Assembly (NCBI GenBank): GCA_902786365.1
Contig: CADACD010000025.1
Coordinates: 1 to 35,419, forward strand
From: an uncultured Lachnospiraceae bacterium
GTDB taxonomy: Bacteria > Bacillota > Clostridia > Lachnospirales > Lachnospiraceae
Direction of reading: 5' to 3'
Length of the DNA: 35,419 nt
Shown: positions 9,330 to 15,000 of the stretch, one piece after another
Layout: every line of letters begins with the position of its first letter
How positions within the stretch are numbered: the first letter of the stretch is position 1
The notes under the pieces: generated by a model
What the model was told of the DNA's origin: nothing
Databases searched by the model: none
Seen by the model: the letters and a program-made list of their open reading frames with translations, nothing else
Program-made: the position numbers and the translations under genes

Positions 9330-9574
9330 TGCTGTGACATTGATAGCGATGAAACGTGAGGTTGCTGCATGAAATTGCAGGTTTTCCGCGGAGCGAATGT
9401 CAAGTTAGGAAACTGACGACAAGTCACTGTACAAAGTAAATGTCCATCAGAGAATGGAAACAACGTGCTGATGAAGCTCTTTTTTAAATAGACAGGAGCG
9501 ACACGCACGGGAGTGTGTACAGTCACCGCTTGTCGTACTGATTTTCAAAGTACGAAAAGGAGGCGACTTTTTTT
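9330..9574 (+). promoter_or_regulatory. Structured leader of the S10 operon
   Basis: The leader can fold into several hairpins: CTGCA/TGCAG (9365-9380); GTC-A-AGTT/AACT-GAC (9399-9417); alternative TCCAT/ATGGA (9443-9458) or CATCAG/CTGATG (9445-9473), which share bases and precede a T-run (9480-9485); a compound helix 9491-9534 with ACGCAC-GGGA-GTGTGT at its tip; and CGTACT/AGTACG (9534-9554) just before AAGGAGG (9557-9563). In E. coli the S10 leader is bound by L4, and Firmicutes also have an S10 leader RNA. The helix at 9491-9534 is the best candidate for the conserved part. The regulator here is inferred. Confidence 0.6.
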
Positions 9575-10701: not shown

Positions 10702-11322
10702 ATGGCAAAGGTATCTGTTTACAATATGGAAGGTAATCAGGTTGGCGATATCGAACTTAGCGATGCTGTATTCGGTGTAGAGGTTAATGAACATTTAGTA
10801 CACATGGCAGTTGTTAGTCAGCTTGCAAATAATCGTCAGGGTACACAGAGTGCAAAGACACGTTCTGAAGTAAGCGGCGGTGGAAGAAAACCATGGAGAC
10901 AGAAAGGAACAGGTCATGCAAGACAGGGTTCTACAAGATCTCCACAGTGGACAGGCGGTGGCGTAGTATTCGCTCCAAAGCCAAGAGATTATTCATTTAA
11001 GTTAAATAAGAAAGAAAGAAGACTTGCGCTTAAGTCAGCATTAACATCAAGAGTACAGGAGAACAAATTCATCGTTGTTGATGAACTCAAGATGGATGAG
11101 ATTAAGACAAAGAACTTCGCAAATGCATTATCTAACTTAAAGGTTAATAAAGCATTAGTAGTATTAAGTGATGACAGTGAAAATGTTGTTTTATCAGCAA
11201 GAAATATTCCTACAGTTAAGACAACATATACAAATACAATCAATGTTTATGATATATTAAAATATGACACAGTAGTAATTGATAAGGCTGCTGTAGCTAC
11301 AATCGAGGAGGTGTACGCATAA
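10702..11322 (+). CDS. rplD: 50S ribosomal protein L4
   Basis: 206 residues, full length. The conserved extended loop [17 protein letters not shown] followed by [13 protein letters not shown] lines the exit tunnel and is intact. L4 binds 23S rRNA and in enteric bacteria represses the S10 operon; that role here is only inferred from the structured leader. Its stop overlaps the rplW start (TAATG), which implies translational coupling. Confidence 0.98.
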
Positions 11323-11621
11323 TGGCAAATGTACAGTACTATGATGTAATCCTCAAACCGGTTATTTCAGAAAAAAGTATGAATGAAATGGCAGATAAGA
11401 AATATACTTTCTTAGTTCACACAGATGCAAACAAGACAATGATTAAAGAAGCAGTTGAGAAGATGTTTGAAGGAACTAAGGTAAAGAGTGTTAACACAAT
11501 GAACTTAGAAGGCAAGAAACGCAGACGTGGAACAACAGTTGGTAAGACAGCAAAGAGAAAGAAAGCTATTGTTCAGTTGACAGAGGACAGCAAAGATATT
11601 GAAATCTTTGAAGGTTTATAA
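11322..11621 (+). CDS. rplW: 50S ribosomal protein L23
   Basis: 99 residues. The family start [15 protein letters not shown] and the basic loop [23 protein letters not shown] are present. L23 sits at the tunnel exit and docks trigger factor and SRP. Its ATG overlaps the rplD stop by one base. The gene is followed, unusually, by a 283-base gap filled mostly with tandem repeats before rplB. Confidence 0.98.
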
Positions 11622-11636
11622 GATATAAATAAGACT

Positions 11637-11859
11637 CTCGCACATAAATTTGCTTCGCAAATGGTGCATGAGTAGGTCATATCCGCTTTGCGAATATGAC
11701 AATAAAAGGAAACTCGCACATAAAAATTTGCTTCGCAATGGTGCTCGAGTAGGTCATATTTGCTTTGCGAATATGACAATAAAAGGAAACTCGCACATAA
11801 AAATTTGCTTCGCAAATGGTGCTCGAGTAGGTCATATTTGCTTTGCAAATATGACAATA
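11637..11859 (+). repeat. Tandem array of three 76-77-bp hairpin repeats between rplW and rplB
   Basis: Three units start at 11637, 11713 and 11790 with the core CTCGCACATAAA. Each contains two hairpins. The first is ATTTGC-TTC-GCAAAT, partly flanked by an outer stem CTCG-CAC/GTG-CGAG. The second is GTCATATTTGC-TTT-GCGAATATGAC. Units differ by a few substitutions, some of them compensatory or wobble changes in stems (for example TTTGC/GCGAA against TTTGC/GCAAA). The third unit lacks the AAAAGGAAA tail. There is no T-run after the stems, so they are not simple terminators. A degenerate relative lies at 14931-15000. Confidence 0.9.
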
Positions 11860-11904
11860 TACGCAGGAAAGCGTGATAATAAACAATCTGAAAGGAGAAC
11901 AACG

Positions 11905-12747
11905 ATGGGAATTAAGACATTTAACCCATATACACCTTCTAGAAGAAATATGACAACTCTCGACAATGCAGAGATTACAAAGTCAATACCTGAGAAGTCA
12001 TTAACAGTTTCTTTAAAGAAGAACGCTGGTCGTAACAACCAGGGTAAGATTACTGTCAGACATCATGGCGGTGGATCAAGAAGAAAATATAGAATAATCG
12101 ATTTTAAGAGAAAAAAGGATGGTATTCCAGCAAAAGTTGTTTCTATTGAATACGATCCAAACAGAACAGCAAATATCGCTTTAATCTGCTACGCAGATGG
12201 AGAGAAAGCATATATCCTTGCACCTAATGGATTAAAGGTTGGCATGACTGTAGAAAGCGGTGCACAGGCAGAAGTTAAAGTTGGTAACTGCTTACCACTT
12301 TCAGATATTCCTGTAGGTACAGAAGTACACAACATCGAGTTATATCCTGGAAAGGGTGGACAGCTCGTTCGTGCAGCAGGTAATTCAGCACAGTTGATGG
12401 CTAAGGAAGGCAAATACGCAACACTCAGATTACCATCAGGTGAGATGAGAATGGTACCAATCATCTGTAGAGCAACAATTGGTACAGTTGGAAATATAGA
12501 GCATGACCTTGTTAAGATTGGTAAAGCAGGTCGTAAGAGAAATATGGGTATCAGACCTACAGTTCGTGGTTCTGTTATGAACCCTAATGACCATCCACAT
12601 GGTGGTGGTGAAGGTAAGACAGGAATCGGTCGTCCGGGTCCATGTACACCTTGGGGTAAACCAGCTCTTGGATTAAAGACAAGAAAGAAGAACAAGGCGT
12701 CTAACAAACTTATTGTAAGAAGAAGAGACGGTAAAAACATGAAATAA
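11905..12747 (+). CDS. rplB: 50S ribosomal protein L2
   Basis: 280 residues. [14 protein letters not shown] is the normal L2 start and is preceded by AAAGGAG, so ATG 11905 is chosen, although the frame stays open upstream through the repeat array to about 11650. Conserved parts include [25 protein letters not shown] and [20 protein letters not shown] with the His essential for peptidyl transferase function. It is followed by rpsS after 15 bases. Confidence 0.98.
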
Positions 12748-14930: not shown

Positions 14931-15000
14931 CTCGTATATTACAAATCGCATTGCGGTAATGCTCGTGTGGGTCATATCTGATGAATGGTATGGCAATAAC
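14931..15000 (+). repeat. Degenerate copy of the S10-operon hairpin repeat
   Basis: This stretch between rpmC and rpsQ aligns end to end with the units at 11637-11859: CTCG at the start, a GCATTGC centre, the strongly kept block TGCTCGTGTGGGTCATAT (compare TGCTCGAGTAGGTCATAT), and CAATAAC at the end. The second hairpin has decayed (ATCTGATGAATGGTATGGC), so it is an older or diverged member. Confidence 0.65.

Follow-up and report, generated by a model that had tools for sequence, protein, structure and literature searches.

Why does the S10 operon of an uncultured Lachnospiraceae bacterium carry a tandem array of hairpins between rplW and rplB? The window that we analysed is the whole stretch of 35,419 nucleotides. 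TRF placed a tandem array at 11637-11859 (period 77, 2.9 copies, 93% matches), in agreement with the 76-77 bp units described in an earlier sequence-only reading. The stop codon of rplW ends at 11621 and the ATG of rplB stands at 11905; the gap is therefore 11622-11904, and the separation of 283 bases given in that reading is correct. In each unit, 3 nt link hairpin 1, of about 37 nt, to hairpin 2, of 25 nt. The features are listed below with the scores of the covariance model R1, which was built from the three array units and one unit of a congener.

11322 to 11621, plus strand: rplW (L23), the upstream gene
11637 to 11702, plus strand: unit 1, with hairpin 1 at about 11635-11672 and hairpin 2 at 11676-11700 (one C-A mismatch); R1 88.8 bits
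11701 to 11712, plus strand: spacer AATAAAAGGAAA, which separates unit 1 from unit 2 and recurs at 11778-11789
11713 to 11779, plus strand: unit 2, with hairpin 1 at 11713-11749 (upper stem one base short) and hairpin 2 at 11753-11777; R1 91 bits
11790 to 11857, plus strand: unit 3, with hairpin 1 at 11790-11827 and hairpin 2 at 11831-11855; R1 99 bits
11905 to 12747, plus strand: rplB (L2), the downstream gene

Two hairpins, as claimed earlier, were seen in every unit. Folding of the gap as RNA gave -77.1 kcal/mol; the 200 dinucleotide shuffles averaged -56.4, and all of them folded less well (z -4.41). The array also lacks U-runs after its hairpins, as had been described, and the only terminator-like match in 11300-12100 lies inside rplB on the minus strand, none being in the gap. 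Across the end of the array, 11851-11880 resembles a promoter (10 of 12 matches), but the two sites of this kind that were found compare with 2.3 in shuffles. The array does not have the unique spacers of a CRISPR, because both inter-unit spacers are the same 12-nt stretch. At the gathering score, Rfam gave no match on the array or on the copies in 20 loci, and below that score the matches on the elements were at chance level only. Elsewhere in the window, the S10-Clostridia ribosomal protein leader RF03136 is present at 9341-9422 (93 bits).

We compared the rplW-rplB gap with orthologous gaps. rplW was found in 52 of the 60 genomes searched, and 30 loci were fetched, namely that of the own genome and those of 29 relatives from the family and order. 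At the level of the genus, the comparison covers five of the other eight genomes; in G005, G007 and G008 the search did not find rplW. Measured from the last codon of rplW to the start of rplB, stop codon included, the distance is 286 nt in the own genome, and the 29 relatives have 14-165 nt (60-100 nt in 23 of them). Therefore, the earlier statement that this junction is normally only a few bases is wrong for the group. By inspection, none of the 29 orthologous gaps contains the array, and because all of these gaps are only 14-165 nt long, we conclude that the array is an insertion. The rplB leader is kept in close relatives (for example TAAGATAGAATAAGC-AGATATACGCAGTAAAGCGTGATAATAAAC...), and the array stands directly before its TATACGC part, at the following element.

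11858 to 11886, plus strand: native conserved mini-hairpin (stem 11861-11864 / 11871-11874), directly 3' of the array and intact despite the insertion

This mini-hairpin upstream of rplB is native to the relatives and has 4 bp (ACGC-loop-GCGT), followed by GATAATAAA. Fourteen sequences of the 30 loci were selected by eye; in these, all 56 cells are paired and double changes occur in all four pairs. The covariation score of these 14 sequences is 0.604, compared with 0.271 in shuffled and at most 0.093 in slid alignments; pair types are no more numerous than in shuffles (4 versus 4.7). The mini-hairpin has no Rfam match and was not seen in G002. It is possibly an undescribed element of the S10 operon.

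A second gap in the same window holds a further copy.

14931 to 14996, plus strand: decayed fourth copy in the rpmC-rpsQ gap; R1 E 0.005, modest score

The rpmC-rpsQ gap is 113 nt here, compared with 22-47 nt in seven of eight relatives and 100 nt in the eighth. In the congener (G008), a single unit stands before alaS and is missing at the equivalent site in the own genome (G000) and in G004; these three are the genomes, out of seven with a match, in which the alaS start was located. By eye, the G008 unit replaced the end of a small ORF, the stop codon of which is now within the unit.

Are the units confined to these sites? BLASTN of the array against the own genome gave no convincing further copy (next best E 0.056). 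Among 97 genomes, the one clear match besides the array itself was the G008 alaS unit, which has both-side changes in hairpin 2; two further matches were short (E 0.005-0.008). A search of the genome and its relatives with a covariance model, as the sequence-only reading had proposed, found further copies in the own genome, in G008 and in other Lachnospiraceae. In the own genome R1 matched at C12, C1 and C13, and in G008 at several places; at E ≤ 0.01 it matched in 14 of 299 Lachnospiraceae genomes, own included. A second model, R2, was built from 28 matches. At E ≤ 0.05 it gave 59 matches in G116, 47 in G321, 32 in G223 and 8 in G008, while G061 and G294 had 10 matches apiece; these were read individually in part. 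The 11 matches in G000 at this threshold include C28, which is part of another repeat family, and three that are not individually listed. Weak R2 matches were seen in G002 (E 0.011) and G003 (E 7e-4). With strict filters and a threshold of E ≤ 1e-4, the same architecture was recovered from 19 of the 397 Lachnospiraceae genomes sampled, own included. In a class-wide search at E ≤ 1e-3, seven of 391 genomes matched: two Lachnospiraceae (own included) and five weak matches in other families.

Each genome has a few sequence subfamilies (two in G116, two in G000), and the three G281 copies shown differ from one another. Within its own genome, the subfamily of the window was found only in the S10 operon. 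Between genera, the repeats have mainly form and loop in common. Tandem arrays occur also in G061, G294, G223 and G116. Moreover, units are nested: G116 units stand inside another hairpin 1, and in G321 all 22 copies printed (of 47 matches) stand in the loop of a repeat that is longer and compound, of the kind TTCACTCCGTTCCAGTAAC...GTGAACAGTAAC. This compound repeat contains the same hairpin-1 module (CATGCAAAATTTGC/GCAAATGG) as the two-hairpin family, but it is longer and has other flanking hairpins. A GTDB pattern scan gave at least 119 stretches, of which 80 were listed (L126-L205), and L184 (Bacillus) and L199 (Peregrinibacteria) were dropped from these; 71 of the remaining 78 have the compound repeat, so that at least 71 loci in Lachnospiraceae and related records carry it.

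Three other observations concern the surroundings of the copies and the own genome. Some copies adjoin, or lie within about 120 nt of, 6S RNA, tmRNA or tRNA genes (L083, L096, L082, L085). A second REP-like mosaic family with the core GAGGTGTC-GACGGAGTCC is found at C7, C8, C9, C28 and C34 of G000 (L056, L057, L059, L258, L063); the core pattern occurs 10 times in G000 and 6 times in G008, with some overlaps, and 0 times in the other seven genomes of the genus, and G000 and G008 are also the two genus genomes that clearly have the two-hairpin family. Finally, nine contig ends in the own genome carry the end of a multi-copy insertion sequence (CTCAAACTTCGCACATAAATTTTAGC and close variants; L009-L015, L017, L018).

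The anatomy of the family was derived from 23 representatives. GGxA often precedes stem A, which has 3-9 bp and a free sequence. In well-parsed rows (hairpin 1 is misparsed in G008_alaS, G327 and G233), an asymmetric loop comes next; its 5' side is AT-R-AAA of 6-8 nt, and its 3' side has 0-2 nt and is often G. The upper part is stem B of 5-8 bp, often TTTGC/GCAAA, with a 3-nt loop. The linker to hairpin 2 is CTAC, TCTAC, GTAC, GTAG or GCAG. Hairpin 2 is without its usual form in L132, L194, L157 and L158, which were kept in the averages. Own arms pair better than arms crossed between representatives (stem A, 0.91 versus 0.40; hairpin 2, 0.91 versus 0.34), although these averages include misparsed rows and are biased toward pairing because the parse seeks pairing.

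The stems covary. In alignment A7, 95.5% of 645 cells are paired, double changes occur in 23 of 24 pairs, and the covariation score is 0.689, compared with 0.176 in shuffled and at most 0.084 in slid alignments; A7 was fitted to the structure and these figures are inflated, but the margin is still large. It had been proposed that differences between the units keep the stems paired. Within the array this holds in part: unit 1 has the C-A mismatch in hairpin 2 and unit 2 lost one base from the upper stem of hairpin 1. Strong covariation emerges only when units of other genomes are compared. The counts of G-T cells (16) and A-C cells (12) in A7 are similar, so that no RNA-strand signature is visible. 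This argues weakly against selection on one RNA strand, because A7 is biased toward G-U and the decayed copy contributes 4 of the 16 G-T cells.

We examined orientation at 73 sites, with genes called simply as the longest ORFs and sites compiled by hand; these sites represent a subset of the R2 matches (for G321, 19 of the 22 printed copies). Between co-directional genes, the sense/antisense counts are 5/0 in the own genus (7 sites), 8/2 in G116a (16 sites), 6/4 in G116b (14 sites), 3/8 in G223 (17 sites) and 1/16 in G321 (19 sites). The array of the window is in the sense orientation. This bias of the subfamilies could fit lagging-strand insertion or RNA selection alike. In the flanks of 11 single G223 copies no target duplication was found: the longest common word had a mean of 4.09 nt for own and 4.10 nt for crossed flanks. 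This is expected for movement of the REP/IS200 type. At G116a copies, a TGATATAAT-like word of at least 8 nt is shared in 4 of 11 own pairs and 14 of 110 crossed pairs, and target duplication there is ambiguous. The G116 copies L304, L307, L308, L309 and L314 abut TGATATAAT-like sequences, which resemble a -10 box, on both sides.

How does the family compare with known repeats? REPs have been reported in eight phyla, mostly Proteobacteria, and GTAG-REPs are thought to be mobilised by a resident Y1 transposase, according to PMC3733652; in the main text of that 2013 survey of GTAG and CGTC REPs, Firmicutes, Clostridi* and Lachnospir* have 0 occurrences. GTAG-REPs and BIMEs with RAYT (TnpA_REP; E. 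coli REP; REPINs) resemble the two-hairpin family in several ways: both are short, imperfect, intergenic palindromes, in part with a GTAG-like foot, they form clustered mosaics, their stems vary between genomes while the form is kept, and target duplication is absent from the set tested. Several palindromic modules stand together in arrays, as in BIMEs. GTAG-REPs are intergenic and of high copy number; R2 matches number 59 in G116 and 32 in G223 but 11 in G000, C28 and the three not individually listed being among the 11. The two also differ. Most units of the two-hairpin family have a second hairpin; GTAG is found within 0-2 nt of the hairpin foot in only 7 of 23 representatives (hairpin 1 being misparsed in 3 of the 23); and the 6-8 nt side of the asymmetric loop, set against 0-2 nt, exceeds the 1-3 nt bulge that PMC6006769 gives, with a long hairpin, as the prediction rule for GTAG-REPs. 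Furthermore, neither G000 nor G008 has Y1_Tnp.

BOX elements of Streptococcus pneumoniae also have modular hairpins with internal tandem amplification in a low-GC host, as does the two-hairpin family; to our knowledge, their sequence and modules are unrelated to it.

The family could be a true GTAG-REP family that was formerly mobilised by a RAYT transposase since lost from the own genome. Its imperfect, intergenic and clustered hairpins and the G223 flanks are in line with this idea, and hairpin 1 resembles a GTAG-REP when read backwards: the linker at its foot then reads GTAG in 7 of the 23 representatives, GTAC in 3 and CTAC in 2, including the window unit. We nevertheless regard it as unlikely. 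PF01797 (Y1_Tnp) was present in 7 of 18 genomes searched but absent from 6 of the 11 element-bearing genomes among them (G000, G008, G281, G116, G223 and G327), including G116 with its 59 R2 matches; the search left out the element-bearing G321, G757 and G253. Near the Y1 loci scanned (15 of 18), R1 had no match at E ≤ 0.5, and the 11 of 18 loci that were read look by eye IS200-like or like the class-2.1 proteins of PMC6006769. Thus, the family works like REP/BIME, but membership in the GTAG-REPs fails on the enzyme and the size of the loop. Of the earlier proposal of a dispersed REP/MITE-like family, the REP part is supported by copies in the own genome, in G008 and in 19 of 397 genomes (own included), whereas the MITE part is not supported. 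A MITE reading would derive the units from the insertion sequence whose end CTCAAACTTCGCACATAAATTTTAGC stands at several contig ends of the own genome, on account of the 14-nt identity TCGCACATAAATTT with unit 1. This is very improbable: there is no inverted copy of TCGCACATAAATTT at the other unit end, the own-genome matches have E 0.7-8, and TCGCACATAAATTT is missing from the printed units of other genera. Inspection revealed no terminal inverted repeats, and the 11 single G223 copies show no target duplication, G116a being ambiguous.

The array might instead have a function as RNA within the S10 mRNA, in processing, stability or rplB translation, as the sequence-only reading had suggested in part. 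It lies in the mRNA directly upstream of the rplB leader and folds strongly, and the copies of the own genus, like the array, are sense at 5 of 5 co-directional sites. However, antisense copies dominate in two other subfamilies (16 of 17 co-directional sites in G321, 8 of 11 in G223). Beyond an orientation bias that allows two readings, we found no positive support for this proposal; the 29 orthologous gaps without the array, the similar G-T and A-C counts and the Rfam result all speak against it, and we consider it improbable. Local duplication of a meaningless sequence, or an assembly artefact, would agree with the lack of a close DNA copy of the window subfamily elsewhere in the own genome. 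The earlier reading had held that the array would be reduced to such a duplication if neither further copies nor covariation were found. Both were found: related units with covarying stems exist elsewhere, a single unit stands in G008, and the earlier proposal was not refuted by its own test. Accordingly, we rejected local duplication as the sole explanation, and an explanation of this kind is hardly credible.

The explanation that we favour, and consider likely, is that a bipartite palindromic repeat of about 70 nt, non-autonomous and similar to REP/BIME, was amplified locally in tandem to give the array; the repeat would belong to a superfamily that extends through Lachnospiraceae. The array is inserted relative to 29 orthologous gaps, its architecture is dispersed in the own genome, a congener and other genera, the stems covary, and units occur in tandem, in mosaics and nested in the hairpin loops of other repeats. 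Copies would have spread in trans via a single-stranded hairpin, by some mobilising enzyme, and the three units may have come from slippage or unequal recombination. Pairing might be maintained since the hairpin is the recognised form, or by template-switch correction between the arms, or both. Because the array contains no terminator and leaves the native rplB leader hairpin and the Shine-Dalgarno sequence untouched, the S10 mRNA probably tolerates it as a passenger, and it is unlikely to act as a switch for the two genes. Several points count against our explanation, namely that no mobilising enzyme was found, that the window subfamily is confined to the S10 operon in its own genome, the orientation bias of subfamilies, a possible duplication at G116a and the five weak matches in other families.

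The family is REP-like and non-autonomous, and it is present neither in Rfam nor in the literature searched, which left most subscription journals outside its coverage. A bolder and less likely reading is that it represents a mobile class of bipartite hairpins, largely of Lachnospiraceae, which would be moved by an enzyme that is neither Y1 nor RAYT and that would read the loop (AT-R-AAA opposite G) and not the stem sequence; frequent insertion into hairpin loops would then give the nested mosaics. Many Lachnospiraceae, including genomes in which no Y1 was found, carry a family comparable to REPs, the unpaired motif of which is constant whereas its stems change freely. This raises a testable question: what mobilises the two-hairpin repeats? 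It also calls for caution, because hairpins within essential operons may be non-regulatory.
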